64,000 nt of DNA, taken from positions 1-64,000 of IMG/VR virus record IMGVR_UViG_3300025626_000019; one strand, 5' to 3'. The position numbers and the translations under genes are program-made. Source of the DNA: a virus. The notes beneath the pieces are model-generated. The model made no database searches. It saw only the letters and a program-made list of their open reading frames with translations, and had not been told where the DNA came from. Positions 9,211-27,605 of the stretch are shown in pieces. How positions within the stretch are numbered: position 1 is the first letter of the stretch; the number at the start of each line of letters is the position of its first letter.

Positions 9211-9230
9211 TAATAGCGGTACAATCGGTG
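9136..9230 (+). repeat. Tandem duplication, 49-base period, frame-breaking
   Basis: A 46-base identical segment (ATCAAAGCAGATTCGATGGC...) occurs at 9136 and 9185, separated by three bases. The 49-base offset shifts the fibre frame by one. Confidence 0.9.
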
Positions 9231-13000: not shown

Positions 13001-13125
13001 TAATCCCTGCGGGCGACGGTAAAGCTAAGGGTGTGGACTATGGAACTCCCGGTATAAATAGCTATGAGATTATTGGTATCGCCCTTTCTGACAGTAAGGA
13101 CGGTGAAGTAGAGGTGAAAGTATAA
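10012..13125 (+). CDS. Giant tail-fibre-like protein, segment 4 of 4 (C-terminal)
   Basis: This 1037-residue C-terminal part has many further YDSNNTGFYCDPSSAS-type repeats, FRNDTSGRGLYN blocks and RAPIFYDS units. The last 140 residues (ARWADLAERYSADDMYENAT, then GVISTNPAVQMN and KKGQWVIPAGDGKAKG) match the terminal domain seen on many phage fibre and peptidase-like structural proteins. The stop at 13,123-13,125 lies one base before the next ATG, so it is tightly coupled to the Cys-tail gene. Confidence 0.8.
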   Translation: MMNTVRANRFEMGSASTYIDNVSGQYGTIRVTGNTGGYAGYAINDDWVFMSSGAGVAGIYNDTNNQWATIYRQAGDTELHWGGVEQASTKDGFFLGTNQVRSPIFYDSDNTTYFGNFGGTSRFLGLTVDNVITGSVSGSSGQLRSKDNRIIEPNEDSASRLTFGFTSWNNNNTAPYADYLHLRSYGDASGGSDNLLMFKKSGRGMRLWQQTWNSGTAYSAYSDLAIYNANPGGGSSSNFYAASFIDADDTSFFVNPSGISKIKHLEVAGENLNASYSHAAIEVREYNYGGAQTDNDATAPRIGFHWGGRVASQIRLASNSEIQIRNNPGTGYESFRANNIYSQGSTYAGRYYDRDNTAYYGDFASTSIVNILDVRGEIYNDGWFRNDTSGRGLYNTPNNMHFYSSDSDSWRIRSAQNTISLEFSTNADVYRGRVYATNSDEIGFLSQDSGWSLRTTNSVVDAHHSFYAPIMYDRDNTSYFVNPSSDSLFNGDIRANRFVHKDDVSQNDAFGIYFSSNESDSYAIYREPGGWSNPYPDLKIAFHTGIRMGAYHSYNGIRFMNDANSTTQVMSINNGSDPLGQNDVYVNNALQAGGSLRAPIFYDSNNTGRYTDPASTSQMGTIEWDQLNARDMGDFITLYGDNSTNHSISSRNASGSNADDIRINSYGSVYINLDSNVNNSSGADFMIGRHGQATGTINNTDLFRVYGDANYAYSAFSFRAPIFYDSNNTGFYCDPSSASNFNTSVRANEIYARNWFRNDNSGEGLYNQNTGFHAYSYQGRYFALTGNNNNSDVHVQLRATYNGNIRMWLHGASNNYCGYLNTGGQWILRTRMQDGYSPAIEFREEGNESWTGNPGNDVGKIEYHSNRMYIVAGANSNRICQFRRDGSDKSYVDNNGLYVGTATSARWADLAERYSADDMYENATVMGMNLDGDSEITKWEPGMPLVGVISTNPAVQMNDMGIEPGSNSVKARMNPFIALKGRIPCLVSEDVKKGQWVIPAGDGKAKGVDYGTPGINSYEIIGIALSDSKDGEVEVKV
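13053..13060 (+). promoter_or_regulatory. Candidate late promoter TATAAATA before the Cys-tail genes
   Basis: An exact TATAAATA lies inside the end of the fibre gene, 67 bases before the ATG of the first Cys-tail protein. It is well placed to add late transcription of the Cys-tail and rSAM operon. It could also be a chance match within coding sequence. Confidence 0.45.
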
Positions 13126-13126
13126 T

Positions 13127-13540
13127 ATGCCAACATATGCACAATTGAATAGTAGTATGCAATCTAAGGCGGGCGCACAACTACGAACCTTTGATAGGGG
13201 CATTAATATTGCCATTGATTCTTGGGTTCGTATTTGGGGTTTCGATAGCACTTATGGATCATGGATGATTGTTAACGGCTATGGTTGGTATGGTCGTTCG
13301 AACCATTACCACAGATTCGAATACGTTAACGCAAACAACACATTGTTTAATAACTACCTTGATGGTGGAATATATACTGGTGGGATTATCCGTTCCCAAG
13401 ATGTTATTGATTCAATTAACAGTGTTGTGCGAAGAGCGGTTGATTTGTGCGAAGGCAGAATAACCAACAGAAGTATGACTGCACGTCCATGTCACCAAAG
13501 TTGCCATAGTAGTTGCCACACATCGAGAGGTAGACGCTAA
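13127..13540 (+). CDS. Small protein with C-terminal (CHxS)3-RGRR tail, copy 1
   Basis: A protein of 137 residues with no family recognised. The body shares GAQLRTFDR, YVNANNTLFNNY, DGGI, RRAVDL and EGRI with the next gene, so the two are paralogues. It ends in three tetrapeptide repeats, CHQS-CHSS-CHTS, followed by RGRR. It lies directly behind the giant fibre gene and directly before the rSAM genes, and overlaps copy 2 as TAATG. Inference: a late virion protein or peptide substrate whose Cys/His tail is modified by the neighbouring rSAM enzymes. Metal binding by the CH repeats is the main alternative. Confidence 0.8.
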   Translation: MPTYAQLNSSMQSKAGAQLRTFDRGINIAIDSWVRIWGFDSTYGSWMIVNGYGWYGRSNHYHRFEYVNANNTLFNNYLDGGIYTGGIIRSQDVIDSINSVVRRAVDLCEGRITNRSMTARPCHQSCHSSCHTSRGRR

Positions 13541-13956
13541 TGACCGCAGATAGAGGTGATATTAACAGTTGGGTGCAAACATATAGTGGCGCACAACTCA
13601 GAACATTTGATAGAACTATTACATATACGGTAAATACGTATGTTCGATATTATCGGTTTGATAGTACGTGGGGTGGGGCGTTGAGGCTTGACGGTAGACA
13701 ATATACTACAAATACCAACTTTACTAGAAGATATGAATACGTAAACGCAAACAATACCCTATTCAATAACTATATTGACGGTGGTATTAATGGCGGTCAG
13801 CTTATGTATGCACAAGATATCGTAGATACTGTAGAAGACAACGTAAGAAGAGCGGTTGACCTAATTGAAGGTAGGATTAATAGTACGTATCAAGTAATTA
13901 ACGCATGCCATGCTAGTTGCCATAGTAGCTGTCATACATCAAGAGGAAGACGTTAA
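13540..13956 (+). CDS. Small protein with C-terminal (CHxS)3-RGRR tail, copy 2
   Basis: A protein of 138 residues, paralogous to the preceding gene. The bodies have diverged considerably, yet the last 12 residues are identical (SCHSSCHTSRGRR, preceded by CHA here and CHQ in copy 1). Such conservation of only the tail and a central YVNANNTLFNNY block points to a functional tail. It starts at a TAATG overlap and ends one base before the first rSAM gene. No signal peptide or membrane segment was seen. Function unknown; the proposed role as rSAM substrate is inference from context. Confidence 0.8.
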   Translation: MTADRGDINSWVQTYSGAQLRTFDRTITYTVNTYVRYYRFDSTWGGALRLDGRQYTTNTNFTRRYEYVNANNTLFNNYIDGGINGGQLMYAQDIVDTVEDNVRRAVDLIEGRINSTYQVINACHASCHSSCHTSRGRR

Positions 13957-13957
13957 A

Positions 13958-15133
13958 ATGACAATGCAAAAATCATATTGTAAGCAAATGAGATATTCTG
14001 GTCCAGAGAGTTTGTCTCCTGATAGTGCATCCAAGTTTGATGTTCTCATTCAGATGGAAGTTTTGGCTGGATGCGATCACGGTTGTTTGGGTTGTTTTGT
14101 CGATAAGAACATCGATCCTGATATGAACCAACAGATCATCGACAGAGCAAAGGAACTTGCTGATGGTGTAGCCAGAACTGGTCTTAACCTCAGAGAATTT
14201 GTTATCGGACCTACAGACTTCTTCACAGCCAAGAACACAGAGTCAGTATTAAATAACTCAGTAGTCCAAGAGATTATGAGAGAACACACAGGCGCTCGTA
14301 TTGCCGCTCCTGCTAAGTTTGATATTGCTACTATGGATAAAGTAAAAGAAATCTTTGCTGTCCTTGATGACGAAGACAAATACCGTCGTGACATGATCAT
14401 TGAGTTTATTATGCCAATTGGCAGAGTAGAACAGATGTTGAACGATGACGAATATTTCGACAATGTTATGGAAAAAGTAGAGTTCTTTAAGAATAATACA
14501 CCAAAGCAAATGGATTGGTCTTGGACGCTTCAAGCATCTAATGTTGTTGGTAAGAAGATTGACAAAGAAACATACAATAAGATCATTCAAAAATCAGTAA
14601 ACGAATACGAAACTATTGTAGAGATGAACCCAGCTTTCTCAAGGGCGAGATCACAGTTGGTACAGCGTAGAAACCTATTTGGTTGGAATGATTTTCTTGG
14701 TAAAGTTATTGACAAAGATAATGCACAAGAAACTGTTATGTCAATGGCTAACTTGTATTGTAACTCAATCAACTTTGTTGGTCTTACAATCGTACCAGGA
14801 GAAAACGGACCTACCACACACTTGAATGTAATGCTACATGAGCAAGCATTCTTCTTAAACAATAAAAACCTAGACGTCACAGGTCTTACATTCGAAGAAA
14901 TATTGGATCGTAAAAATGAGCTAGTGACGAAGGGTATAAATAGATCAAGTAAGGTATCTGATTGTAACGGATGTCAATTCGCGGTAGCATGTGCTTCCCG
15001 ATTGATTTTTGAAGCTCAAGAAACTTTAAACGTTGATGGATGTGTTTTAAACAAAGATGTCCTTGCGGAATATAACCCATACGATTGGACTTGGAACGAC
15101 GATGCGATGGAAAAACTAGGAGTGACATCATGA
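13958..15133 (+). CDS. Radical SAM protein A1 (GPTD-type)
   Basis: The start is placed at the ATG after AGAGGAAG, two bases beyond the previous stop, giving 391 residues. The rSAM iron-sulfur motif CDHGCLGC uses C39, C43 and C46. Instead of a GGE motif it has VIGPTDFFTAKN, shared by all five + strand rSAMs. A C-terminal C336-x2-C339-x5-C345 with a later Cys in NVDGCVLN resembles a SPASM/twitch auxiliary cluster, typical of peptide-modifying rSAMs. It is the first gene after the Cys-tail proteins and overlaps the next gene as ATGA. Substrate unknown; the Cys-tail proteins are the prime candidates. Confidence 0.85.
   Translation: MTMQKSYCKQMRYSGPESLSPDSASKFDVLIQMEVLAGCDHGCLGCFVDKNIDPDMNQQIIDRAKELADGVARTGLNLREFVIGPTDFFTAKNTESVLNNSVVQEIMREHTGARIAAPAKFDIATMDKVKEIFAVLDDEDKYRRDMIIEFIMPIGRVEQMLNDDEYFDNVMEKVEFFKNNTPKQMDWSWTLQASNVVGKKIDKETYNKIIQKSVNEYETIVEMNPAFSRARSQLVQRRNLFGWNDFLGKVIDKDNAQETVMSMANLYCNSINFVGLTIVPGENGPTTHLNVMLHEQAFFLNNKNLDVTGLTFEEILDRKNELVTKGINRSSKVSDCNGCQFAVACASRLIFEAQETLNVDGCVLNKDVLAEYNPYDWTWNDDAMEKLGVTS
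14935..14942 (+). promoter_or_regulatory. TATAAATA octamer inside rSAM A1
   Basis: An exact late-promoter word lies within the A1 coding sequence, about 190 bases before the next start. It may be an internal promoter or chance. Confidence 0.25.
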
Positions 15134-16215
15134 TAGGCCAACACCTTTATTTTTTGAATAACAGAAAGTATATTACAAACTCAACTAACCTCGAAACTGT
15201 ATTTTTCGAGATGAACTCATTTTACCACACGAAAACACCTAGAACGGTTTGCATGATTGAATCATCAATGCCAGACAGCAAAATCGTCGAGTATGATGTA
15301 AGAGTACGTGCCGATAGCATTCGCGCAGGTGCTGGTGTTGACATCATTTTCAAACCTTGGGAAGAAGTTTGTACTAGTGAGTTTATCCAAAATAGTGAAA
15401 AGTATATTCTTGTAGCTTGGGAAGAAGAAGATCAAATTCAAATCCATGCAAGATACGCTGCTGGATTGCTGACTGCATCTGGTTTCTATCCTGATGCCTC
15501 TACGGCAACAATCAACACCATGGTTGGCGATTTTATGGAAAAAATCTTCGACTGCGATAGTATGTTTACATTCATGTCAGCGGCTCCTGCTGTTCAAGAT
15601 ATGTCTGATACTGTTGAAGCTATTCTCAACAACCCAGAAACACCACCATTCGACGTTACATATCAAAATGGCAAGAACTTCAGCTATGACTTCTTGTTCT
15701 TCTTAAATGAATACTACCCATGTGCGGAAGTACAATCATTGTTGATTGAGAAGTTTACAATTCATAGTGCTGATATGGCACAAGATGTTATGGAACACTT
15801 TACATCACGTCGCCACTATTTAGCCTACATCCTTTCTGTAATTGATTGGATGAATGCTAATGATCTACCAGTAGACAAGCAATTGTTTGTTAATGAGGTT
15901 TACATGAAAGCCGCTAATAAGGGCAACTATCAAATTGCGTTTTATAAATTAGAAGAACTATGGAATACAGTAAAAGATAACGAAGCTTTCATTCTTGCCC
16001 ACACTGATAAAAGAGATAATACAAGAGATGGTTGGGAATTTTGGGATATGTATACCGAAATAAGCAATGTATTCCCTATTGTTAAGAAGGTGCTTGAGCG
16101 CAGTTTTGACATGGATAACCTAACAGAAGATTTGAGACTTATTAACACTGATGTTCAGTTCTTCTCTAAGAGACAGAATAGAATTCCATACTTGATACAC
16201 AAATACACATTATAG
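15130..16215 (+). CDS. Unknown protein in the rSAM operon (361 aa)
   Basis: The ATG at 15,130 overlaps the A1 stop (ATGA), so translation is probably coupled. The protein is soluble-looking and acidic, with no motif I recognise, no signal peptide and no membrane segment. The C-terminal half is helix-like (YLAYILSVIDWMNANDLP, FYKLEELWNTVKDNEAF). Its position between rSAM A1 and A2 in a tightly packed operon suggests a partner, scaffold or co-substrate of the modification system. That is inference from context only. Confidence 0.8.
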   Translation: MIGQHLYFLNNRKYITNSTNLETVFFEMNSFYHTKTPRTVCMIESSMPDSKIVEYDVRVRADSIRAGAGVDIIFKPWEEVCTSEFIQNSEKYILVAWEEEDQIQIHARYAAGLLTASGFYPDASTATINTMVGDFMEKIFDCDSMFTFMSAAPAVQDMSDTVEAILNNPETPPFDVTYQNGKNFSYDFLFFLNEYYPCAEVQSLLIEKFTIHSADMAQDVMEHFTSRRHYLAYILSVIDWMNANDLPVDKQLFVNEVYMKAANKGNYQIAFYKLEELWNTVKDNEAFILAHTDKRDNTRDGWEFWDMYTEISNVFPIVKKVLERSFDMDNLTEDLRLINTDVQFFSKRQNRIPYLIHKYTL

Positions 16216-16225
16216 GATGTAATAA

Positions 16226-17128
16226 ATGAATGATAATGAAAATAACTTGAACCCAGATAGAGAATTTGACGATCATAAATTTTCAGAGCGTGAGAAGAAC
16301 TTTAAAGCTTACACTTTACCTCTTGCGCCCCAAGATTTGGTTGCGATCTATAAGGAAAAAGAAAAAAATAAAGATTTTATTCTGTACGTAGATTACCACA
16401 GGACTAAAGAAAAGTTGAGTGCTAAGCATATTATCATATACTTGGCGAATACTAACTTTAAGGCTGGGTTTACTTTCTTGGATGAAGAATTGGTTACGGA
16501 ATACATCAAATCAGATTTTATGGTTGATTGTCCAATTCTTGTACGCATGCTCTCAGTTATCGTTAGAATGAGATTGCACTACGATATTAACGATGCCGAA
16601 AAGAAGTTGCTTCTTTTGTTTCCAGAAGAAAAAGTACATGAATATATCGAAGGTAACCTCGAATTAGTTGATGAACTAATCGAAACTATTAGAGATGCCG
16701 TGCCGTGGGCGATGACAAATCTATATGAAAACCTAAATGAACAAGACAAAGAAATTGAGGTAGAACTCAAGAACTTTGTGGGTGATATTGAGGTTTATGA
16801 TAAGCCATCGAACTGTGGACCTAATGTTGCGCGTTTCATCACAGAAGCGTGGGATGGATTTTTGTGTATCGTTCACAACATGGGTGTTAGTACGACGTAT
16901 AATAAAGCAGTTTACAATGCACAACCAAAGTATTTTGGCAAAGATTTGTACTACATCATGAATGAGACTAGGGTTATTGATCAGATTATGGCGATGTTCC
17001 CCGACTGGTTTTGGGTTAAAATTGAGACTCTAGACTTGAATAAGTTGCTAGAGGAATCTGAAGGCGACCACATCGAAGAATCTATCGACAAGATCGAAGA
17101 TAAGTTTGATGATAGTCCATCTGAATAG
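16226..17128 (+). CDS. Unknown protein in the rSAM operon (300 aa)
   Basis: It starts at an ATG after GGATG, ten bases after the previous stop. It is an acidic protein with a charged N-terminus (EFDDHKFSEREKNFKAY) and a very acidic C-terminus (EESEGDHIEESIDKIEDKF). The middle is helix-rich (ILVRMLSVIVRMRLHYD). No known family was recognised. It overlaps the start of rSAM A2 by about 20 bases. Conservation of this pair between rSAM genes in other phages would show whether it belongs to the system. Confidence 0.8.
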   Translation: MNDNENNLNPDREFDDHKFSEREKNFKAYTLPLAPQDLVAIYKEKEKNKDFILYVDYHRTKEKLSAKHIIIYLANTNFKAGFTFLDEELVTEYIKSDFMVDCPILVRMLSVIVRMRLHYDINDAEKKLLLLFPEEKVHEYIEGNLELVDELIETIRDAVPWAMTNLYENLNEQDKEIEVELKNFVGDIEVYDKPSNCGPNVARFITEAWDGFLCIVHNMGVSTTYNKAVYNAQPKYFGKDLYYIMNETRVIDQIMAMFPDWFWVKIETLDLNKLLEESEGDHIEESIDKIEDKFDDSPSE

Positions 17129-18131
17129 CACATATGCGGGATATTACTCTTATAATGCAGACGAAAGCCCCATAAACACAGACTTTCTTAGAACAGAAAT
17201 CAATCTGGACATATTGCATGGCTGTAGCCAAATGTGTCCGGGTTGCTTTATCCCTCGAAAGAACTTGACTAAGGCAGACAACCTAGAAACTCTGTATAAT
17301 CTTCTTATCAAAGGTGCGTATTACCCCGACGAAATAACCGTCGGACCTACAGACATATTTGATGCTGAGAACTTTAGTGATATTATGAACCATCCCTATA
17401 TGGAAAAGCTCTATGGGATTTCAGCTATTGGTTTCACGTCTACGCTTACACAACCATACGCAATGGTCAAAGATAAACTTGCAAAGATATGGTCTTTGTA
17501 TAAAAACATTCACCGTGTTCCTGATATTGACTTTAAGATTGTTTTAGATATAGATAAGTATCTTGATGGAGATAACGATCATTTCTATAAGAATTTAGAA
17601 TTGTTTAAACTAGGCTCAGTTCAATTTCGTGTCAATTACCACAAAGATATATTCAAAAGAATTTCGTATAATGAATTAGCTCAAAGAGTATTTGATGATT
17701 TCAATGCTCCTGTTGTCATAACACCTTCTTTCCTTACTGATAGGAACGTTAGAGGTAAAGTAAGTCAACACCTAGAAAACTTTAGACGTGAGATGGTAGA
17801 ACAAAAAATCGACAAACAGTGGCTAAACCTTTACACGTTCTTTGATGCTAAGTTTAATGGATATGGTTGCCAAAACTATAGTTTTTATAATAACAAGCTA
17901 TACCTCAACCCATTCTTATACGACGTGATCATACAAAGAACACCACAGTTCGAAACAACTATGGATGCTAATACTTTATATGATAATATCGAATATGCAC
18001 AACAAGTTGATGATTGTAATGGTTGTGAATACATGATGAGTTGTGCTGAGCGCAACATACACTTGTATATGGAGTCGAGAGGATTAGGCAGTTGTGTTGC
18101 TCTTAAGGAGTACATGTATGCCTCTAATTAA
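17109..18131 (+). CDS. Radical SAM protein A2 (GPTD-type)
   Basis: About 340 residues. The start is taken at the ATG at 17,109 inside the end of the previous gene; a TTG lies just before it. The cluster motif CSQMCPGC uses C39, C43 and C46. The family marker TVGPTDIFDAEN follows. The C-terminus has DDCNGCEYMMSCAER and a further Cys in RGLGSCVALKE, a SPASM-like C-x2-C-x5-C pattern. The segment YLNPFLYDV parallels YLSPF[IM]YE in A3 and A4. It is a paralogue of A1 and A3-A5 and probably an iron-sulfur, S-adenosylmethionine-dependent peptide modifier; substrate unknown. Confidence 0.85.
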   Translation: MIVHLNSTYAGYYSYNADESPINTDFLRTEINLDILHGCSQMCPGCFIPRKNLTKADNLETLYNLLIKGAYYPDEITVGPTDIFDAENFSDIMNHPYMEKLYGISAIGFTSTLTQPYAMVKDKLAKIWSLYKNIHRVPDIDFKIVLDIDKYLDGDNDHFYKNLELFKLGSVQFRVNYHKDIFKRISYNELAQRVFDDFNAPVVITPSFLTDRNVRGKVSQHLENFRREMVEQKIDKQWLNLYTFFDAKFNGYGCQNYSFYNNKLYLNPFLYDVIIQRTPQFETTMDANTLYDNIEYAQQVDDCNGCEYMMSCAERNIHLYMESRGLGSCVALKEYMYASN

Positions 18132-19278
18132 GAACAACCTACACTACGAAATGACCACAGAGACGCAAACTAAGCCAGTGAGCGCAGTGAAGATACAACT
18201 TGATGTCTTGGATGGATGTCACCACAAATGCCCTGGGTGCTTCGTACACAGACGTGGCAACAGTAGTGATGAGCATCAGCTAGAGAATGCCAAGAGGTTT
18301 ATACGAGACATTACTGATCAAGGTATTCTTGTTGATGAGATGCTTATAGGTCCGACTGACTTTCTTGCCTCTGAAAACTTCTATGAGGTTATGCCACATC
18401 TGTTAGATATTATCAATGATAATAGCCCAATACTTGCATTCGTGTCAACCCTTATTGATGGAGATATTAAAAGGTTTTGTCAATACATTACTGATAATGT
18501 AAACCTTGACACAGAGATTGAAATTGGTATTGCGACTAACCCACACAAATTCTTCAATGAAGATTATATTGAACACGTATCAGAAATACTAAACTACATA
18601 GACAAGAACCTCAAGCATGAGGTCACATATACGTTCGTTGTTAATATAAAAGATTATGGGTTAGATTACGAAGCATTGCATGATCAAGCTGTAAAACGTT
18701 TTGATACCATATTAGACTTCATTCCTTCTGTGTCTCGCTCTCACAAGGCAAACATAATCTTAAAGACCCTTGATGAATTTAATGAATACTTTAGCACATG
18801 GCATCGTGAATCTAAACTAAACAATATTATGGTAGATCACAGCCATGCAGGAATGAACTATACGGTGTTGAACTACAAAAGAGGCGAGTGGTATCTTAGT
18901 CCGTTTATGTATGAAAATATGGCTATCTACCATGACATGTTCAAAGTAGATAACTTTAACTCAGTTAATGTTATGGTGGAGCAACAAATAGAAAGCGCTA
19001 AGGGAACTGAGTGTGAAGATTGTCCCTTGTTCTTCTCTTGTTACAACAGAAAGATCATAATGCTAAGAGATTACCTTGGCGTGGATCGTTGTATTGCTCC
19101 TAAGGAGAACATGCTAAATAACATACATAACTATAACGCACCCGCCCAAACAATGTATCAATGGGATGGGTACACTGTAGAGAAAGATAAACAAGGCTAT
19201 CGAAAGAAGTTTCTGGTTACTGAGGATGATGACCCAGAATTAAAAAGAATTGAGGATATTTCTTATGTTAAACAATGA
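18118..19278 (+). CDS. Radical SAM protein A3 (GPTD-type)
   Basis: The start at ATG 18,118 follows AAGGAG by a good spacing, overlaps the end of A2, and gives 386 residues. The cluster motif CHHKCPGC uses C34, C38 and C41. The family marker is LIGPTDFLASEN. The conserved IPSVSRSHKAN and YLSPFMYEN segments are shared with A4. The auxiliary-cluster-like motif is ECEDCPLFFSC, with a later Cys in GVDRCIAPKEN. After this it has an unusual charged C-terminal extension of about 50 residues (KDKQGYRKKFLVTEDDD). Role inferred as for A1. Confidence 0.85.
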   Translation: MPLIKNNLHYEMTTETQTKPVSAVKIQLDVLDGCHHKCPGCFVHRRGNSSDEHQLENAKRFIRDITDQGILVDEMLIGPTDFLASENFYEVMPHLLDIINDNSPILAFVSTLIDGDIKRFCQYITDNVNLDTEIEIGIATNPHKFFNEDYIEHVSEILNYIDKNLKHEVTYTFVVNIKDYGLDYEALHDQAVKRFDTILDFIPSVSRSHKANIILKTLDEFNEYFSTWHRESKLNNIMVDHSHAGMNYTVLNYKRGEWYLSPFMYENMAIYHDMFKVDNFNSVNVMVEQQIESAKGTECEDCPLFFSCYNRKIIMLRDYLGVDRCIAPKENMLNNIHNYNAPAQTMYQWDGYTVEKDKQGYRKKFLVTEDDDPELKRIEDISYVKQ

Positions 19279-20422
19279 CTGGAAAGACATTGTAAGTGGC
19301 GGTGGAGTGGGCGAAGAGTTCACTTCTATAGACAGTATGAAGCAGTACAAGATACAAGTCAATCTTGAGATACTTGAAGGTTGCTCGTATATGTGTCCCG
19401 GTTGTTTTGTGAAACGCAAAGGCAATTGGAACCCAAGATCAATCACGACGTTTCATTCATTGGCATATGAATTAAAAGATAGAGACGATATTGTACTAGA
19501 TGATATTGTAATAGGTCCGACTGACTTCTACGGCGCACAGAACTTAGAAGAGATCATCAACAACCTAAAACTTGCTGATGCTATCCTGATGATGCCAGAA
19601 GACAATAGAAACATTCAGCACAACTGTTCTATACTTGGCTCGTTATCTGAGAAAGATATAGAAAGTAAAATTAAGTCTATTGAGAACTCACCCTTGGGCA
19701 AAGTTGTTGAGGCGTGGGATGTTCAAATTGCACTAGACTTAAACCGTCTAATGAACGATCCAGAATACTTAAATGCATTAGACGAAAGAATTGAGACTTT
19801 TAAGAATAGTTCTCTGAACTTCGAAATAAGCATGGCTACTAATATCGTACAAGGAGTAGAGGACATATTGTACCCTGCTATCGATTTTGTTCGCTCAAAG
19901 TATGAAACAGTTATTGAAGTTTTGCCCTCTGTTGTCAGATCATTTAATCATAGTGCAAAGCACGGAAACAAGCTATTCGAATGGAATGACATGTTATCTC
20001 GTTTAGCTGTAGACCCACATCGTTTTAAAAATAAGTTTCATTTCCTACAAGGGGACGTATCACATAAAGCATTCCACTATTCTGTGGTAAGTATATATCA
20101 TGGTGATATGTATTTGTCTCCTTTCATATACGAAAACGCTCAGATACACACAGATGATTTTAAAGTTGATGACAGTTGGCATTGGTTGCCAGATGCAGAT
20201 ATATCTGATTACATTCTAAAAAAGAAAGATGAAGTTGTTGTATCGCAAATGGAAAAGAGTGGAGACAAGGAATGTGGAAGCTGTAAGTACCTAAACATAT
20301 GCGTGAATAGAATGGTTCCTATGATAATGGATACTGTGTTTGATGGACGTAAAGAATGCATCCTAAATAAAGATGTTATTGCTTTATTTGATGATGAGGT
20401 TTACCATGGGAATAGTTACTAA
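19265..20422 (+). CDS. Radical SAM protein A4 (GPTD-type)
   Basis: The ATG at 19,265 follows GAGGAT, overlaps A3 by 14 bases, and gives 385 residues. The rSAM motif CSYMCPGC uses C40, C44 and C47. The marker VIGPTDFYGAQN, the segment LPSVVRSFNHS and the segment YLSPFIYEN are all shared with A3. The C-terminal ECGSCKYLNICVNR, plus a Cys in GRKECILNKDV, fits an auxiliary iron-sulfur site. It is in the same operon as the other A-group genes. Confidence 0.85.
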   Translation: MLNNDWKDIVSGGGVGEEFTSIDSMKQYKIQVNLEILEGCSYMCPGCFVKRKGNWNPRSITTFHSLAYELKDRDDIVLDDIVIGPTDFYGAQNLEEIINNLKLADAILMMPEDNRNIQHNCSILGSLSEKDIESKIKSIENSPLGKVVEAWDVQIALDLNRLMNDPEYLNALDERIETFKNSSLNFEISMATNIVQGVEDILYPAIDFVRSKYETVIEVLPSVVRSFNHSAKHGNKLFEWNDMLSRLAVDPHRFKNKFHFLQGDVSHKAFHYSVVSIYHGDMYLSPFIYENAQIHTDDFKVDDSWHWLPDADISDYILKKKDEVVVSQMEKSGDKECGSCKYLNICVNRMVPMIMDTVFDGRKECILNKDVIALFDDEVYHGNSY

Positions 20423-21425
20423 CAATAGACGTTCCGCCCAAGCTGACAAGGACTTTAATCTATCCTTCTCTGAGGGACATGAAATCAAAGTACAGTTTAA
20501 TTGCGAAGTTTTATCTGGATGTGAGTTCAAGTGTAAAGGTTGTTTTGTAAACAAACTTGGCTCTAACATGGGTTCTTACGATAGATTAAACAATGCTATT
20601 GACTTATTCAACGATAATGGGTATAGAGTATCTACAATAAACATCGGACCTACTGATTTATTTGGCAACAACAACGTCATTGAATTGCTGCAGGACGAAA
20701 CGTTTCGAGAGTGTTTGAGTAAAGTTTCTACTATACAATTCGTGACGACTCTAACCAACATCTCAACAGAAGTAATTGATCTACTCAATAGTATACCTAA
20801 GATAGATGGCTTTATGTATGATGCCAACATCGCACTACAACCACCAGTAGATTGGGATTGGGTTGAGGAAAGGTTAAGCCTTCTGAATGGTTTCACAGAT
20901 GATCTAAACTATTACATGGTCTACAATATGGGCAATGATGATGAGTACAATTCTAAGGTACTTGAGATGTCAAAGTTAGTTGAAGATAGATTTGACTCAA
21001 TCCTCACGTTAAACCCATCATTCTTCCGTGCGCCTAAGAGTAAGGTGCATGCTCACTTAATTGAGAAATGGAAGAGCTACGACTTCGCAGATGATCTTAT
21101 GCCTAAGACATTTATAGACCAAGCACAGGGTGGAAGTTTAGAACTCAATTACACATACTGCAATGAAAGGTTTTTCTGGACACCATTCGTTTATGACATA
21201 GCATTAATTGGTACTGATGAGTTTCAAGTAAAAGATGAGAATGATATTGAGTCATGGACAGAAGCCAAATCGTTTCAATTTATGGAACAATTAACTTATT
21301 CTAGTGAAACGAAAAACTGTGGCTCCTGTCCTAATATGATGACATGTATTGATAAGGGTGTGCTAAGTTATATGAAGCACCATCAATTAACGCTCTGTAC
21401 GTTTCCTGGTGTAATAGCGACCTAA
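20406..21425 (+). CDS. Radical SAM protein A5 (GPTD-type)
   Basis: The ATG at 20,406 follows GATGAGG, overlaps A4 by 17 bases, and gives 339 residues. The cluster motif CEFKCKGC uses C39, C43 and C46. The marker is NIGPTDLFGNNN, followed by LNPSFFRAPKS and FWTPFVYD. The C-terminus has NCGSCPNMMTCIDK and a Cys in LTLCTFPG. It is the last gene of the + operon. Its end overlaps the end of the convergent gene by 39 bases. A CCTAAG-AATGTT-CTTGGG hairpin at 21,421-21,438 sits on its stop codon and may end transcription from either side. Confidence 0.85.
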   Translation: MGIVTNNRRSAQADKDFNLSFSEGHEIKVQFNCEVLSGCEFKCKGCFVNKLGSNMGSYDRLNNAIDLFNDNGYRVSTINIGPTDLFGNNNVIELLQDETFRECLSKVSTIQFVTTLTNISTEVIDLLNSIPKIDGFMYDANIALQPPVDWDWVEERLSLLNGFTDDLNYYMVYNMGNDDEYNSKVLEMSKLVEDRFDSILTLNPSFFRAPKSKVHAHLIEKWKSYDFADDLMPKTFIDQAQGGSLELNYTYCNERFFWTPFVYDIALIGTDEFQVKDENDIESWTEAKSFQFMEQLTYSSETKNCGSCPNMMTCIDKGVLSYMKHHQLTLCTFPGVIAT

Positions 21426-22100
21426 GAATGTTCTTGGGAATGAATCGTTAATTTTACCCCATTGCTCCAAGCTATCTACGAATATGTTCTTAAAAGAAAC
21501 ATCAACATCTTCCATTGGATAAATCGCCATTAGGTCATTTCCATAATTCAGTCGAACTTCGTATGGCTCATCTTTCAGAGGAAACAATAAGAATACGTTA
21601 ATCGCATGTTGATCGTAGAAGTTAAGAACTCCCGGTGCTACAAGTATTCCATGTTTACGCAAATCTTCGCTATAATGAAACTCACAGTTCATAAAGTCCA
21701 CACGCTTCTTAGTTTTTAAATACCAAGGCGCTTCAATTTTTAGCACAGCATATCCTGGGTAAAGATCATCACCATATTGTCTTTGCTCGTGCATACCAGT
21801 ACCAACTTGATGCGAGTGCAATGGGCTTGCGGATGAAACTTTCCCATCAGGTGTTACCCTAAAAATCATGTCAGACCACAACTTCATTACAATAGCTTTT
21901 TGCATGTATTGGGTAATGCCAGGGCAAGCTTTTACAGTAGGGGTTGGAACCATAATGCCAGACTTGGAGTTATAGACAGTGTACATCGTAACCAAGTTCT
22001 TCCACCACGATGGCTTTCTACTCTTAGATGTCCATTTAAAATTTGCAAAAACACTTTTATCATAAGTGTACGCTTCAATCTCTAGTTTTTTTCTTCTCAT
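21387..22100 (-). CDS. Unknown protein, DUF6065-like, last gene of the - rSAM operon
   Basis: About 237 residues. The start is placed at the ATG at 22,100 after AGGA; a TTG six bases upstream is possible. The block KACPGITQYMQKAIVMKLW, then VLKIEAPWYLKTKK and VLNFYDQHAINVFLLFP, resembles the phage DUF6065 family from memory; this is a tentative match. It overlaps the end of rSAM B4 and is convergent with rSAM A5. Its place in the - operon suggests a role linked to the rSAM proteins, but no catalytic motif is evident. Confidence 0.75.
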   Translation of the reverse strand: MRRKKLEIEAYTYDKSVFANFKWTSKSRKPSWWKNLVTMYTVYNSKSGIMVPTPTVKACPGITQYMQKAIVMKLWSDMIFRVTPDGKVSSASPLHSHQVGTGMHEQRQYGDDLYPGYAVLKIEAPWYLKTKKRVDFMNCEFHYSEDLRKHGILVAPGVLNFYDQHAINVFLLFPLKDEPYEVRLNYGNDLMAIYPMEDVDVSFKNIFVDSLEQWGKINDSFPRTFLGRYYTRKRTER

Positions 22101-23157
22101 AATCAAATCCTGTAATTAAGTTTTGTCCAGTTTTTTCCATATAATTAAACCACATTCTCATGATGCAGTCAGGTAAGTCTCGTTCTCTATTCTTCCAGTC
22201 CCATTGAGTGTAACATCTAAAGCCACATTTATTCCACCACTTACATGATAAACAACCGTTCTCATCCATATAAGCTTGCATCATGCCAGCATTATCTTTT
22301 GGCTTGTACTCAGTGTTGAAATCACGTTGATCATATCTATCCCATCTACAATTAGATGTAGAGTTGTCAGGAAAGATAGTAACCTTATTTAGCGCTAGGC
22401 AATGCATGTGATTTGATTCATTGTAGATCAAATCTTTGATTGGGTTGATATCTGGGTAGTTGTGATATACGAATTTAAGGAACTCAAGATATTCGCTATC
22501 TGAGGGGATCATATAATCGAAGCCACGATCTGGAATGTAATCATCAAAGTAAAAGTTGTCGAACTTCTCGTACAAGTAATGAAAATACTCATCATCGTCA
22601 GCCATGAATTTTCTGATGCTCAGCGTAGTGGCAACCATATTGATCGATGTAATGTAATCAGCGAAGTATTCGATGTTCTTAGCATACGGACCTTTCGTAG
22701 GTCTACCATCAAAGTCATATGAGCAAATAATGTGAGATGGTATGTCTATGGCGTTTAGATCATCAAGCAACTTCTGTACCAATTCTCTTTTCGAGAACTG
22801 AAATGAAGTAACCCAAACTACTTTAATGTTTTGTTTGTGTTCATCGTAAATCTTTTTAATTTCTACTAGAAAGTCATAATAAACCTCGTATGCCCAATCG
22901 GAAATACGATCTTGAAACAACTCACCGCCAAGCATATTGATCTGTATGACATCGGCTCTATTCTTCATTTTAATAACATGTTCTTCAACCAAAGGTATCT
23001 TAGAGAAGATTTCTTCCCTTGACAAACCTACGGTAGACTTCTTGTCGTGGTGGCAAAACGAACAGTTAAGATGACAGTTTTCAAACAACGTCATCTCTAT
23101 CTCTGCTATGTCTGGTCGCTTGCTTTCCAGAAGTTGTTTTGTTATTTCAAAGTCCAA
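22075..23157 (-). CDS. Radical SAM / SPASM-like protein B4
   Basis: There is no ATG in a sensible place: the first in-frame ATG falls just before the cluster motif. A TTG at 23,157 preceded by AGAGGA is proposed, giving 360 residues; the open frame extends to 23,214. The motif CHLNCSFC uses C28, C32 and C35 from that start. A canonical GGE follows (MLGGELF). The C-terminal C-rich part (NGCLSCKWWNKCGFRCYTQ, plus further Cys) is SPASM-like, indicating auxiliary clusters. It overlaps the preceding and following genes, as in a coupled operon. Confidence 0.8.
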   Translation of the reverse strand: MDFEITKQLLESKRPDIAEIEMTLFENCHLNCSFCHHDKKSTVGLSREEIFSKIPLVEEHVIKMKNRADVIQINMLGGELFQDRISDWAYEVYYDFLVEIKKIYDEHKQNIKVVWVTSFQFSKRELVQKLLDDLNAIDIPSHIICSYDFDGRPTKGPYAKNIEYFADYITSINMVATTLSIRKFMADDDEYFHYLYEKFDNFYFDDYIPDRGFDYMIPSDSEYLEFLKFVYHNYPDINPIKDLIYNESNHMHCLALNKVTIFPDNSTSNCRWDRYDQRDFNTEYKPKDNAGMMQAYMDENGCLSCKWWNKCGFRCYTQWDWKNRERDLPDCIMRMWFNYMEKTGQNLITGFDYEKKKTRD

Positions 23158-23545
23158 ATAACATTTCCTCTTTGTAGTATTCGTAGATGTCAGGAACCAT
23201 ACCAAGTTTCTCATTGAAGTCTAGTTGGTGTAATATCTCATCATAGGTTTCTTTGTCTTGCCAGTAAGGCACGAAATGCGGATCATTATTGAATAACAAT
23301 TCTGGATCGTTAAGTGCATCGAAGAAGGGTTCGTTGAAGTCTCTATTGAGCCAATGGGCATAACATATCGCAACCACATATGATTTGGCTGGATAAATCC
23401 ATTCGTCTACATATTCTCTAAAGTGCTGTAGAGCAAACTCAACTACCAAGTCGGGTTGCCAATTAATCTCAACATCAGTCAAGTCATCTTTGAATAAAGA
23501 TGCTGTCAAATGATATGCGCTTTGTCTAGCTTTCCATTCTTTCAT
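23147..23545 (-). CDS. Unknown protein between rSAM B3 and B4
   Basis: The ATG at 23,545 lies in the last codons of rSAM B3 and gives 132 residues. An upstream ATG at 23,572 would give 141, and the choice is uncertain. It is acidic and Trp/Tyr-rich (WQPDLVVEFALQHFREYVDEW, DPHFVPYWQDKETYDEIL) with no Cys cluster. It does not look like a standard RRE/PqqD protein, so no function is assigned. Overlap on both sides implies co-translation with the two rSAM proteins. Confidence 0.7.
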   Translation of the reverse strand: MKEWKARQSAYHLTASLFKDDLTDVEINWQPDLVVEFALQHFREYVDEWIYPAKSYVVAICYAHWLNRDFNEPFFDALNDPELLFNNDPHFVPYWQDKETYDEILHQLDFNEKLGMVPDIYEYYKEEMLFGL

Positions 23546-24482
23546 AATATTCCAACAATCCTTTGTATCCATTACAACTATTAGTCAAATCTTTAACATA
23601 TCGGTAATGTTCTGTTAAACAATTGCCATAATATGTACACGTTTTGCATATTTCGCTAAGATTTTTCTCAGGTTCTTCTCTAGCCCACTTCTTGTATTCA
23701 TAATATGTTTTGTATTCTTTGAAGTATTCCTTATCATATTTATCGAACTCAAGCACACCAAATTTACCAGATGGGGTGATATAGACGTGATCATTACTAA
23801 ATGCATCATACTCTTTATATATACTTCGCCATATATTATCAATATTCTGGAAGTTAAAGTTCTTCTCTGTCTTTGCTTCATCAAACTTAATAACAAAATC
23901 TTCGAAGTCTTTGTGCGTTACAGGATGTGCGTTCGCTTGGTTAATTAAGTCTTTGTGTGTTACAGGGTGTGCGTTCGCTTGGTTAATTGAATATGGTTTA
24001 ATCTCTACTGACTTGATGTTAGACACCATGTTTAGTGTAAATATCATAAATTCAACATCCATCTCCAATACCTTCGGACTAGCCAAGATTAGAACAGACA
24101 AGTCTTTGTTTGCGTTCATCATGTTGTTTAGGACATGCTGTTCTTTCTCCCTTGCACTAAAGTCATAAGACACAGATAAAGTGATATCATCGTCTCGAAA
24201 GAAGTCTGGAAACGCAGAAAGGTTTGTGTTGATGTTTATATCACCCTTATAATATTTACGTATCTTTTCTTTTATAGCATAAAAATAATCTGATGTCAAT
24301 AGACCAATTTCCCCACCATATAGATCGACGTGTCCAATAGGATCATCTATCTGACCCAATGAATGGTCTAACCATAACGGTGTTATCTTGTGCCTGTCGT
24401 TTAACTGTTCGGGCGTCAAGTAACAAAAATCACAACTGAAGTTGCAATAGTATGTGGGATTAATTGATAGATTCATCAACAT
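23526..24482 (-). CDS. Radical SAM protein B3, with internal 14-residue duplication
   Basis: A protein of 318 residues; ATG at 24,482 after GGTGA. The motif YCNFSCDFCY uses C13, C17 and C20. A GGE motif follows (LYGGEIG). The C-terminus has CKTCTYYGNC plus a Cys in LTNSCNGYKG, an auxiliary-cluster-like pattern. The segment INQANAHPVTHKD occurs twice in a row because of a 42-base in-frame tandem duplication at 23,905-23,988 whose copies differ at two bases. The true protein may therefore be 14 residues shorter. Substrate unknown. Confidence 0.8.
   Translation of the reverse strand: MLMNLSINPTYYCNFSCDFCYLTPEQLNDRHKITPLWLDHSLGQIDDPIGHVDLYGGEIGLLTSDYFYAIKEKIRKYYKGDININTNLSAFPDFFRDDDITLSVSYDFSAREKEQHVLNNMMNANKDLSVLILASPKVLEMDVEFMIFTLNMVSNIKSVEIKPYSINQANAHPVTHKDLINQANAHPVTHKDFEDFVIKFDEAKTEKNFNFQNIDNIWRSIYKEYDAFSNDHVYITPSGKFGVLEFDKYDKEYFKEYKTYYEYKKWAREEPEKNLSEICKTCTYYGNCLTEHYRYVKDLTNSCNGYKGLLEYYERMES
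23905..23988 (-). repeat. Imperfect in-frame tandem duplication, 42-base period, in rSAM B3
   Basis: The two units begin AAGTCTTTGTGCGTTACAGG and AAGTCTTTGTGTGTTACAGG. They differ at two bases and insert 14 residues. Confidence 0.85.
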
Positions 24483-25497
24483 AAGGCGTCACCATATCAG
24501 GACTCATTCCATTCGTAGCAAGTATTCTTGGAGCAAGTGTTTTCATTCTACGACAATGTTCTTCAACAGTGCCTTCTCTTTTCATATCACGCACAGTCTT
24601 CTTACAACCATTGCAAATTTCAAACATTGGACATGTATAACAAGCCATCTTCATTGTTTGGATGTGAGGATCATTCGCTAGTGGCGTCTGCATCTCACCA
24701 TTCATTTCTTCTTCAAAGTCGATGGGGTAATCCATATCATCAGCAAAAGAACCACATGAGTAGTAATCACCACCTGGGTTGAATGCACGAATACCACTGT
24801 CACACAGTCTATTTTGTGGACAAGAGGTTGAGTAACCTTTAAGACGTTTCATCATCTGCTTTGTATTGAACTCGTGTTCAGCCAATCCACGATCATATAT
24901 CTCAAGATATGTTTCATAAATCTTACTTAACTGATAGGTACTGCCTTGGACACCAGATGCCATAGCATAATTTAGCTTACACTCCACACCCATTTCTTTG
25001 GCAAGTTCAACGTTCTTGATAGCAAGGTGAGCATTTTCATCTACAATAACAGAAATGAAGTCTGGGCGTTCGCCAGTGTGCTTTAACATAGCATTAGACA
25101 CCATCCAGAAATCTTTCTCAGTGAATTCTGAATAATCACCTTTTAATCTACCACCCCCATATTGAAATGATGTTGCACATCCAAACCTTTCATTCTTGAA
25201 GATAGGAAGCCACTTCTCTGGTCTCATTAAGAAAGGCCAAAGGTTAGATGTAAAGCTGATAGATGCTGGGTAATCATGTTCGTTAAGATGATCAATCAGT
25301 TCTTGGTAATACTCTGGCTTAACCATAAGTGGATCACCACCATTAACGATAATAGTATTCGTATCTGGATATCTCTTAAGGAATTTGTATATGTACTCTA
25401 AGTCCAACAGCCCAACTTCATTAGGGTCAATATCAGTAGAAGAACAAAACGTACACTTGAAATTACATGCTTCGGTGGGTTTAATAATTAAATCCAT
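24460..25497 (-). CDS. Radical SAM / SPASM-like protein B2
   Basis: A protein of 345 residues; its ATG overlaps the end of B1 (ATGGATTTAA). The motif ACNFKCTFCSS uses C11, C15 and C18. A GGDP variant of the SAM-binding motif follows (IVNGGDPLMV). The C-terminal half has CPQNRLCDSGIRAFNPGGDY, YYSCGSFADD, and ACYTCPMFEICNGCKK with a later HC. This is a SPASM-type arrangement for two auxiliary clusters, as in anaerobic sulfatase maturases and peptide maturases. It is in the - operon with B1, B3 and B4. Confidence 0.85.
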   Translation of the reverse strand: MDLIIKPTEACNFKCTFCSSTDIDPNEVGLLDLEYIYKFLKRYPDTNTIIVNGGDPLMVKPEYYQELIDHLNEHDYPASISFTSNLWPFLMRPEKWLPIFKNERFGCATSFQYGGGRLKGDYSEFTEKDFWMVSNAMLKHTGERPDFISVIVDENAHLAIKNVELAKEMGVECKLNYAMASGVQGSTYQLSKIYETYLEIYDRGLAEHEFNTKQMMKRLKGYSTSCPQNRLCDSGIRAFNPGGDYYSCGSFADDMDYPIDFEEEMNGEMQTPLANDPHIQTMKMACYTCPMFEICNGCKKTVRDMKREGTVEEHCRRMKTLAPRILATNGMSPDMVTPYVDESIN

Positions 25498-26516
25498 CCT
25501 TTTTCTCCCGCTAGTTTTAGCATTAGAGTTTTAGGGGCTGGGCAAACATCTTCCATCCATTGTAACTGATGACAATCAGAATGGCAATAGATAAACACAG
25601 GGCAGTCATAACACCTTGGATCACGATCATGCGTCTCACATGAAATGATCTCCATACGTTTTGGGCTTTCACGCACAGTCTTTGCTGGCATGCTGATATC
25701 ACCATACCATTGAGTGGGCGCAGTATTAGGACAACCTGCTACAGTACCATCGGCATTGATGGTGTGTATCTTTTGTTCGCAATCTCTACAGAACGTACCA
25801 TTAAAGAATTGACCTTTGCTAAACTTGTCATACACAGAATTAAGAAAGTTATTCTCAATAGGGTGGTCTTTAGTTGTCTCGTGCATCTTCATCCAAAAGG
25901 CATCAAGCTCAGAGTTATGTGGAAAGATTTCTGTATTGATTGTTGCATTACCATCGTGTGTAAGGCGCTCATAACTAATAGTACCAATGCCTAAAGAGTG
26001 CATATAATCTGCAATCTCAAGTGGTTCCATTGCAACAACGTCTTTAGATACTGAGATAAAGCATTGGATATAACAACCTTCTGCAACTAAACGCTTTACA
26101 TTATCTTCCCAAAGCTGTCTTTGCTTTTCGTTTGCAAAACGAATATTAGGGTCCCATGATGTACCGATAGAACCAGAGTCTAATACTTTAAGAAACTCAA
26201 CACGTTCGTCAGTTAGCTTATACGTAAGATTTGTCGTGATGCCGTGTGTACATTTATCACCCCAATGGTCTTTCGTAACATTATAGAAATGCCACAGGTC
26301 TTTCATTGGCGCAAGCAGAGGCTCACCACCATGATACTCAAAGTGAATGTGGTTTGACCCATCGTCTAGTTCGTTACACCACTTAGCTGTCTTGTCTGCA
26401 TCGAAGTAAATTTTACGCCCATTGATACCAGAGGTAAAACAGTGAGCGCAGTTCAGATTACAAGTTTCAGTGGTCTTGACGTATACGATTAAGTGTTTCT
26501 GTGTCGTGAATGCCAT
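25488..26516 (-). CDS. Radical SAM / SPASM-domain protein B1 (anSME-like)
   Basis: A protein of 342 residues. The motif TCNLNCAHCF uses C19, C23 and C26. The canonical FEYHGGEPLL lies at residues 59-68. The C-terminal SPASM region includes CRDCEQKIHTINADGTVAGC and RCYDCPVFIYCHSDCHQLQW. This is the most canonical of the nine rSAMs and closest in style to anaerobic sulfatase-maturating and RiPP-maturating enzymes, which oxidise Cys, Ser or other side chains in proteins. Its start lies 50 bases inside the end of the cupin gene. Confidence 0.88.
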   Translation of the reverse strand: MAFTTQKHLIVYVKTTETCNLNCAHCFTSGINGRKIYFDADKTAKWCNELDDGSNHIHFEYHGGEPLLAPMKDLWHFYNVTKDHWGDKCTHGITTNLTYKLTDERVEFLKVLDSGSIGTSWDPNIRFANEKQRQLWEDNVKRLVAEGCYIQCFISVSKDVVAMEPLEIADYMHSLGIGTISYERLTHDGNATINTEIFPHNSELDAFWMKMHETTKDHPIENNFLNSVYDKFSKGQFFNGTFCRDCEQKIHTINADGTVAGCPNTAPTQWYGDISMPAKTVRESPKRMEIISCETHDRDPRCYDCPVFIYCHSDCHQLQWMEDVCPAPKTLMLKLAGEKGWI

Positions 26517-26928
26517 GTGATATCATCAATGCCTTTTCATAATTTAACGCTCTATGCGGTGTTCCAGATGGTATTAAAACTGTATCGCCTTTTTTTAATA
26601 CAACCTCTTTGCCTTCAACTTCCATAATCTTTGTGCCAGCAAGACATTCGATAAGAACATCTACAGGGTCTGTGTGGACATCAAATGATGCACCATTCTT
26701 TTGATTGTAAAAGGCATGGACAGTTCCTTGTACAAAGATTAACGTTTCTATTTGCTCGACTTTAATAGTTTTGCTTTCAGACAACAACCTAGCTACAGTC
26801 CCAACATATGAGATGAAGTCAGTCTGTTCTAAGTAGTGTTGATTACCATCTTCGTCTATATAAGAAACATCGTGGTTATCAAAACACGTTTCTGTAAGAA
26901 GGAAGTTTTCAAAGTCGAGAAATGTCAT
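26467..26928 (-). CDS. Cupin-domain protein, first gene of the - rSAM operon
   Basis: A protein of 153 residues. The conserved cupin core is visible as DVHTDPVDVLIECLAGTK, then VVLKKGDTVLIPSGTPHRAL, with metal-ligand-type His residues in both blocks. Cupins of this sort may bind a metal and act as a dioxygenase, isomerase or small-molecule binder. It heads the operon just downstream of an overlapping sigma70-like and late promoter. A role in providing or processing the rSAM product is possible but unproven. Confidence 0.8.
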   Translation of the reverse strand: MTFLDFENFLLTETCFDNHDVSYIDEDGNQHYLEQTDFISYVGTVARLLSESKTIKVEQIETLIFVQGTVHAFYNQKNGASFDVHTDPVDVLIECLAGTKIMEVEGKEVVLKKGDTVLIPSGTPHRALNYEKALMISHGIHDTETLNRIRQDH

Positions 26929-27008: not shown

Positions 27009-27035
27009 GTATCATATATCATGAGGAGATTGAAT

Positions 27036-27605
27036 ATGGAAATGACACCACGTTGGCCTACTATGTTTGGTCAGGGGAAATTTGAAGTTGACGGATTATT
27101 TGAATACCTATTTACAAACTACGACTTAAACGATCCAGTCGGTGATGTAGATGGTGGTAATATATTTAACGACACTTCCGAAATGATGGACAAGTTTAGG
27201 TCTGTTGTTCACATTAAATTTAATGAGTACCTTACAAACACAATCGGCAAGACCATTGAAGATTTCGGTGATCACGAAATGAAAGCATGGATTACTGGTC
27301 ACGGTAAAGATTACAGTATGACAATTCACAATCATTCTGGTGCGCACATATCAGCGGTATTTTACGTTTTGGCTGAAGATAAGTATTCTGGTGGTTCTAT
27401 TGTATTCACTGATCCAAGAGCAAACGCAAACCGTGGATACGATACTTCGTTTGAACAATTATTTGCACAACATGAACACATACCAGAAACTGGTGATTAT
27501 CTAATCTTCCCTTCTTTTAACTACCACCACGTAAATCCTTATTATTCTGAATTTAGGATATGCATCCCAGTTGACTTGTATTTGTACAGCAACAACGACG
27601 TATAA
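27036..27605 (+). CDS. Putative 2OG-Fe(II) oxygenase
   Basis: The ATG at 27,036 follows GAGGAG, giving 189 residues; an earlier in-frame ATG overlaps the ribosome-binding site. The core HNHSGAHISAVFYVL, then SGGSIVFTDPR, then GDYLIFPSFNYHHVNPYY and RICIPVDL matches the putative 2OG-Fe(II) oxygenase family common in marine T4-like phages. Iron-binding His residues and the 2OG-binding Arg are present. Such enzymes hydroxylate proteins or nucleic acids. It is adjacent to and divergent from the rSAM operon under a late promoter, so virion-protein hydroxylation is plausible but unproven. Confidence 0.82.
   Translation: MEMTPRWPTMFGQGKFEVDGLFEYLFTNYDLNDPVGDVDGGNIFNDTSEMMDKFRSVVHIKFNEYLTNTIGKTIEDFGDHEMKAWITGHGKDYSMTIHNHSGAHISAVFYVLAEDKYSGGSIVFTDPRANANRGYDTSFEQLFAQHEHIPETGDYLIFPSFNYHHVNPYYSEFRICIPVDLYLYSNNDV

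Follow-up and report, generated by a model that had tools for sequence, protein, structure and literature searches.

By its substrate-like motif, the locus described here comes closest to HxsABCD (Haft & Basu), in which a protein with a repeated His-x-Ser motif is encoded together with paired radical S-adenosylmethionine (rSAM) maturases. Other related peptide maturases are DarE and DynA, which act on darobactin and dynobactin, and PapB, a ranthipeptide maturase whose substrate repeat is of the Cys-x3-Asp/Glu type. The triceptide, or three-residue cyclophane, rSAM enzymes (HaaB, YhhB, MscB, XncB) are SPASM-type and use an aromatic residue at position i and an acceptor at i+2, with links from His-C2 to Cβ among their products (PMC11002830). 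Known i to i+2 cross-links include C2(His)-Cβ(Ala) by HaaB and ScaB, C2(His)-Cβ(Arg) by YhhB, and C4(Phe)-Cβ(Ser) by MscB, and dynobactin carries a Tyr-His i/i+2 C-N link (PMC11002830). Here we analyze a stretch of 64,000 nucleotides (hereafter, the window; positions 1 to 64,000 of IMG/VR record IMGVR_UViG_3300025626_000019), part of a 70,335-base T4-like virus record, in which nine rSAM genes lie with two small tandem proteins, T1 and T2. We consider it likely that the phage encodes a machine of the kind that makes ribosomally synthesized and post-translationally modified peptides (RiPPs), and that this machine modifies the C-terminal tail of T, a tail-fibre-associated virion protein.

Phage rSAM genes have been described before, in several comparable cassettes. 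A marine T4-like contig, TARA_ERS488813_N000010, has 12 rSAM genes (PMC5332604), pelagimyophage cassettes lie within the host recognition cluster and were read as auxiliary metabolic genes (PMC7029224), and the Campylobacter phages CP220 and CPt10 have 11–12 rSAM genes that include an exchangeable five-gene module (PMC2853527). Papers found in the open-licence literature call phage rSAM genes auxiliary metabolic or unusual and tie none to a substrate, which does not in itself prove that such a link is unpublished.

A conserved tail beside the radical SAM enzymes

T1 and T2 directly follow the tail-fibre gene. Both end in (CHxS)3-RGRR, as had been noticed in an earlier reading of the window from its letters alone (the sequence-only reading); the sequences of both proteins agree with it. 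The nine rSAM genes of that reading, five on the plus strand (A1–A5) and four on the minus strand (B1–B4), are also borne out: all nine are open, with one C-x3-C-x2-C motif apiece. The features on which the argument turns are as follows.

13127..13540, plus strand: T1, 137 aa, ends CHQSCHSSCHTSRGRR; proposed substrate (from sequence)
13490..13537, plus strand: (CHxS)3-RGRR C-terminal tail of T1
13540..13956, plus strand: T2, 138 aa, tandem paralogue of T1, ends CHASCHSSCHTSRGRR; proposed substrate (from sequence and an AlphaFold model)
13906..13953, plus strand: (CHxS)3-RGRR C-terminal tail of T2
13958..15133 (mechanical open reading frame from 13910), plus strand: A1, rSAM, C55x3Cx2C, GPTD, twitch-type 4-Cys C-terminus
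17106..18131, plus strand: A2, rSAM, twitch-type (homology to A3; motif)
18094..19278, plus strand: A3, rSAM, twitch-type (PF04055 6.7e-5, below gathering score)
19250..20422, plus strand: A4, rSAM, twitch-type (homology to A3; motif)
20373..21425, plus strand: A5, rSAM, twitch-type (homology to A3; motif)
22075..23214, minus strand: B1, rSAM, full SPASM Cys set (phrog_1802 1.7e-19)
23526..24482, minus strand: B2, rSAM, twitch-type
24460..25497, minus strand: B3, rSAM/SPASM (nearest named model DynA, 4e-14; nearest solved structure anaerobic sulfatase-maturating enzyme, anSME)
25488..26516, minus strand: B4, rSAM/SPASM (nearest named models DarE, PapB, DarW and DynA; nearest solved structure anSME)

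The sequences give four things directly: the enzyme family, a substrate-like tail, strict co-occurrence of the two, and a position after fibre genes. The window has two occurrences of the DNA pattern for (CHxx)3, and 100 shuffled sequences have none, so a chance origin of the tail was rejected. The tail pattern matches at least 119 viral contig stretches, where the motif is the exact C-terminus wherever the tail open reading frame (ORF) is complete and the T bodies span about 120–309 aa. The same pattern has 25 matches in 257 billion bases of genome contigs. Those at exact C-termini, one contig (L174) aside, are accompanied by the same cassette gene families, and the remainder look like chance, falling inside ORFs or in low-complexity stretches. 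On L174 (JAUIHA010000067.1, 5203-5406) a T C-terminus, CHSSCHGSCHGSRTRR, stands at the edge of a cellular-looking contig from a metagenome-assembled genome with no rSAM in view; the contig has an ABC ATPase resembling SufC and pilin-like and prepilin-peptidase-like ORFs, and a cellular member or a chimeric contig is possible.

A search by tail pattern selects for the tail, and a separate search was therefore made using B4 rSAM alignments alone. It returned 160 viral loci, 24 of which end too soon; in each of the 136 with room downstream, B4 is followed by an ORF whose product ends with three CHx[S/N] repeats. The 43 non-exact cases among them were inspected individually, and in a few another ORF lies between B4 and T. 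The B4-selected search removes the selection bias of the tail pattern and corrects the motif from CHxS to CHx[S/N]. When plasmids were searched with B4, none matched.

Cultured phages give the same picture. B3 and B4 each match the same 7 of 50,697 cultured-phage records, and a T protein is present in all seven (Sinorhizobium Phosso, Agrobacterium Atu_ph07 in two records, Burkholderia FLC6, FLC8 and SURPRISE13, and Pseudomonas DT01). T adjoins the cupin and B4 in those whose map was inspected, and the three whole genomes with exact matches contain the tail motif once each, in T. A tblastn search with the window T1 found no match among cultured phages because T bodies are too diverged; the link emerged from scanning ORF C-termini. 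Atu_ph07 belongs to the T4 superfamily and is Rak2-like, and FLC6 is described as near RSF1, a phiKZ-related phage (PMC8066314, PMC5468394, PMC6102473), so the cassette crosses unrelated lineages. No B3 or B4 match was found in CP220-type Campylobacter phages within the cultured-phage collection, and the rSAM set of CP220/CPt10 may be a different system. The linkage of precursor and enzyme by which RiPP pathways are recognized therefore holds throughout (136/136 loci with room, 7/7 cultured records), and the co-occurrence check that the sequence-only reading proposed uncovered no relative with B4/B3 that lacks the tail protein.

Across 105 distinct T proteins (two scans combined, with overlapping contigs), median pairwise identity is 27% for the body and 81% for the tail. 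Cys makes up 0.15% of body residues. In the tail, Cys and His are each encoded about as often by one synonymous codon as by the other, which points to selection on the peptide. The fourth repeat position (His i+2; n=315) is S in 265, N in 39, A in 7, Q in 2, K in 1 and V in 1, and is never Gly, which occupies the third position (His i+1) in 83 of 315. The triceptide-type substrate motif (aromatic-x-X3, where X3 has a β-carbon) is present in the tail as H-x-[S/N/A/Q/K/V]. Set against the H-x-S repeats of an HxsA-type substrate, those of the tail read H-x-S/N and have an extra Cys. In 17 loci of one related group the tail ends CHGS[L/I], without RxRR. The AlphaFold model of T2 has a folded body and a low-confidence tail.

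Enzyme family and nearest relatives

The SPASM pattern, C-x9-15-G-x4-C ... C-x2-C-x5-C-x2/3-C ... C, is complete in B1, B3 and B4; its 7-Cys signature was read from alignments for B3 and B4 and from Cys spacing for B1. B2 and all A proteins have a shorter twitch-type C-x2-C-x5-C ... C, so the extra C-terminal Cys clusters of SPASM/twitch type noted earlier divide into these two classes. A1–A5 are homologous to one another (17–28% identity), and all have GPTD where GGE is usual. In Pfam searches with the nine rSAM proteins, B3 alone passes the PF04055 gathering score (37 bits vs 29.5); A3 (6.7e-5), B1 (5.2e-4), B2 (1.1e-3), B4 (8.2e-6) and A4 (E=0.084) have sub-threshold matches, Fer4_12 is the sole match for A1 and A5 apart from a chance AAA_assoc_2 for A1, and A2 has no Pfam match. 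A1, A2, A4 and A5 are homologous to A3 (E 9e-28 to 5e-16), by which A1, A2 and A5 are placed as rSAM. The motifs are conserved in distinct relatives (A 151/151, B1 70/70, B2 48/49, B3 59/59, B4 86/87). The profile search suggested by the sequence-only reading thus puts the proteins in the radical SAM superfamily, through the cluster motif together with profile or homology placement.

The B4 and B3 profiles match anSME, a protein-modifying SPASM rSAM, over nearly their full length. Their closest named models are the peptide maturases DynA, DarE and PapB, all far below cut-off; B3 is nearer DynA, and PapB is the best named model for B4 of core-type phages (4.8e-15 and 7.6e-12). Membership of HxsABCD fails on score: B4 reaches 33.6 bits against HxsB (cut-off 370; 1.8e-8) and B3 24.4 against HxsC (cut-off 267.9; 1.1e-5). 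The models of triceptide three-residue cyclophane-forming enzymes (3-CyFE; XyeB/GrrM/FxsB/YhhB/AmcB) gave sub-threshold matches, which place the enzymes outside these models. T1, U1, U2, V and W could not be assigned credibly to any Pfam family, nor T1 to any NCBIfam family, HxsA included.

The locus thus differs from each of its nearest counterparts. Unlike HxsABCD, its repeats are each led by Cys, it has at least four rSAMs, it is phage-borne and fibre-linked, and no HxsA or HxsD was found. In contrast to triceptide rSAMs, the phage enzymes score below model cut-off and the proposed substrate lies at the C-terminal end of a folded protein of >120 aa, with a Cys before each His. For window B3 and B4 the best-matching named models, which cover most of each protein, are DarE and DynA, but the phage scores are about one tenth of cut-off, the substrate is unrelated, and no exporter is seen. 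The PapB match, too, is sub-threshold, and the phage substrate has CHxS repeats. We read the system as SPASM-rSAM peptide or protein maturation in a new setting, a fibre-linked protein of a phage, and with a new substrate motif.

Link to the fibre and probable link to the virion

The fibre that precedes T1 is broken up into four ORFs that overlap and lie in different frames (4560-7895, 7834-9210, 9158-10015 and 10012-13125). In the relatives L002, L003, L007 and L031, the fibre is one open ORF across the ~5 kb visible, and the split in the window likely reflects frameshifts or assembly errors. The giant fibre of the sequence-only reading is accordingly present as a gene upstream, but not as a single ORF. 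Its T4-like assignment of the phage stands, given a gp20 portal at 41585-43147. The phrog_22593/19602 fibre C-terminal families lie just upstream in both the recurrent core layout of the cassette and the layout of the window, where they form the end of the fibre before T1. In marine core-type phages the genes before the cassette encode a baseplate wedge, a giant phrog_358 protein and a fibre. The rSAM cassettes reported in pelagimyophages lie in the host recognition cluster (PMC7029224).

In Atu_ph07, T is gp170, with the numbering checked by gp140 (sheath) and gp141 (lysozyme). The published virion mass spectrometry of this phage gives the range CDS 170-215 as one of three clusters with most virion proteins (PMC6102473); gp170 is the first gene of this range. 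Judged from these gene positions, modified T is probably a tail-fibre-associated virion component.

Cassette architecture and partner genes

On the plus strand, T1/T2, A1–A5 and U1/U2 fill the space between the end of the fibre gene (13125) and the next structural genes. The minus-strand block reads, in transcriptional order, cupin, B4, B3, B2, W, B1 and V; the 2-oxoglutarate (2OG) oxygenase follows at 27021. The cupin, nearby oxygenase and several partners of unassigned function had been listed in the sequence-only reading, and profile matches confirm the cupin and the oxygenase. The remaining features are listed below.

10012..13125, plus strand: last part of the tail-fibre gene, encoding its C-terminus, just before T1 (given as context; phrog_22593 / phrog_19602 match at the C-terminus)
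15085..16215, plus strand: U1, partner of no assigned function, 376 aa (weak profile similarity to core family Y)
16226..17128, plus strand: U2, core partner, function unassigned, next to T in cassettes of the core layout (AlphaFold model confident, pLDDT 88)
21387..22106, minus strand: V, phrog_7084, function unassigned; present in some relatives only
23147..23572, minus strand: W, small conserved partner (phrog_20737 2.5e-35)
26467..26928, minus strand: cupin, before B4 in most relatives (PF07883 1.2e-11)
27021..27605, plus strand: 2OG-Fe(II) oxygenase (PF13759 1.3e-12)

The recurrent order is cupin-B4-T-U2-Y-B1-[2OG]-B3-B2-W; in the B4-selected set the ORF right after U2 is often family Y, not B1. 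The window layout, with T doubled beside the fibre, the A genes expanded and the B block inverted, is common to marine relatives, and L030, L085, L100 and L145 are intermediate. In four loci (L054, L107, L274, L280) B4 is present twice, and in some of these an A-type rSAM is interspersed with T, so that the surroundings of the enzyme-substrate unit are locally duplicated. The B4 and B3 pair is retained even in the smallest cassettes examined, B4-T-U2-Y-Y-B3. This order, without cupin or 2OG oxygenase and with a T tail lacking R-x-RR, is seen in the freshwater-type loci L363, L370 and L402, which also encode a further rSAM-motif protein of 614–629 aa (CPYxCVFC). Cupin and 2OG oxygenases are frequent and not universal, and are therefore accessory. 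An apparent link between absence of the R-x-RR end and absence of the cupin (16/16 vs 13/88) is confounded by kinship and was not used as proof. U2 has no fold match in the PDB, and the idea that U1 is a Y homologue was set aside as weakly supported (hhalign probability 38%).

The genes after the cassette, at 28441-31704, encode two proteins of 345 and 413 aa that match no family, and one of 266 aa that matches phrog_7878 (heptose kinase/adenylyltransferase) and is possibly host-surface related.

Proposed mechanism and alternatives

We infer the modification event, its chemistry, virion incorporation and an adsorption role from the features above; somewhat better than evenly supported, in our estimate, is the fuller proposal that several unrelated large-genome phage lineages share a dedicated multi-rSAM pathway that cross-links a repeated Cys-His-x-Ser/Asn tail of a protein associated with the tail fibre into a rigid, non-standard recognition tip. 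T1/T2 would each consist of a body that folds and a flexible tail, three Cys-His-x-Ser repeats capped by R-G-R-R, which is left exposed to the enzymes. B4 and B3, the invariant pair, with B1/B2 as usual partners, would abstract hydrogens from the tail and install one cross-link per repeat, assisted by U2/Y/W and, in the window phage, by the expanded A-type set. The bond would most likely run from the His imidazole (i) to the β-carbon of Ser/Asn at i+2, the Cys thiols could be engaged in a further bond or bind a metal, and the cupin and 2OG oxygenase might carry out later oxidations. Modified T would then display the tip for host recognition. The RiPP-like or virion-protein modification suggested by the sequence-only reading is supported by the rSAM placement and the strict co-occurrence, with the modification itself as the inferred step; of the two substrates it had offered, the CHxS tails are strongly favoured and the giant fibre is disfavoured.

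Several observations weigh against this proposal. The absence of Gly at i+2 also fits a plain preference for Ser/Asn. The scores of the enzymes against known maturase models all fall far short of the cut-offs, and the proposal does not account for the need for nine rSAMs in this phage. Fold searches with T returned no usable match, so an adhesin role rests on gene position, and the virion cluster of Atu_ph07 that begins with T also spans B4 (gp171) and the cupin (gp172). Pfam found no RiPP recognition element (PqqD-like) among the window proteins; U2, Y and W could still prove to be one at the level of structure.

By analogy with the known i to i+2 links, a triceptide-like His(i)-to-residue(i+2) cross-link appears likeliest, with a Cys thioether as its rival. 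With the same machine and substrate, the key bond could join Cys to a nearby α, β or γ carbon (sactionine- or ranthionine-like), leaving His and Ser for recognition or metal binding. Since the DynA, DarE and PapB matches are far below cut-off, this stays a serious, if less than even, contender, and both bonds may form. Cys is conserved in every repeat save the third of two loci, SPASM auxiliary clusters suit thiol chemistry, and core-type B4 best matches the ranthipeptide maturase PapB; yet B3 is closer to DynA, and a thioether alone leaves the invariant His unexplained. The two exceptional loci, L355 and L356, have tails with two Cys only (third repeat HSS, not CHSS) and keep His and Ser, which argues against the thioether and makes them natural variants with which to separate Cys from His chemistry.

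The tail could instead be a metal-binding tip (Fe-S, Zn or Cu) for which the rSAMs build or load a metal cofactor, with no peptide cross-link. Fibre tips bearing metal sites exist in other phages, and six Cys/His fall within 12 residues; we nonetheless hold this improbable, as the SPASM rSAMs in the nearest families have peptides or proteins as substrates, no metal-cofactor assembly function was identified, and a ligand role would not need the conserved Ser/Asn at position 4. Slightly less probable still is a secreted or intracellular RiPP, in which the tail would be cleaved off as a small cross-linked peptide against competitors or the host and the T body would be its leader. A leader-like body with a C-terminal core does resemble RiPP precursors, but the cassette shows no recurring protease or exporter, T bodies reach a large size (up to ~300 aa) and have a predicted fold, the genes sit among fibre and baseplate genes, and T starts a virion-protein cluster in Atu_ph07. 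That the rSAM genes are auxiliary metabolic genes for Fe-S or host metabolism, with the tail protein an incidental neighbor, is how marine virology papers (PMC5332604, PMC7150976) and a Campylobacter phage report (PMC2853527) read them, and is very unlikely here in view of the one-to-one co-occurrence with T, a gene order conserved across unrelated myophage lineages, and relatives that are SPASM-type peptide maturases.

Biological meaning

rSAM genes have repeatedly been reported in marine and jumbo phages as metabolic helpers; here, a putative substrate can be read from the sequence. The near-invariant tail and its exceptionless co-occurrence in tested loci make the function directly testable in cultured phages. 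If the proposal is true, the virus would encode an rSAM pathway that makes a part of its own particle, the enzymes would be new cross-linkers acting at the terminus of a folded protein, and at least some of the rSAM genes that count as 'auxiliary metabolic genes' in marine T4-like phages would find another explanation. Viruses would then finish their own particles by RiPP-type chemistry, a previously unrecognised route to non-standard particle chemistry that would suggest a new layer of phage-host recognition.

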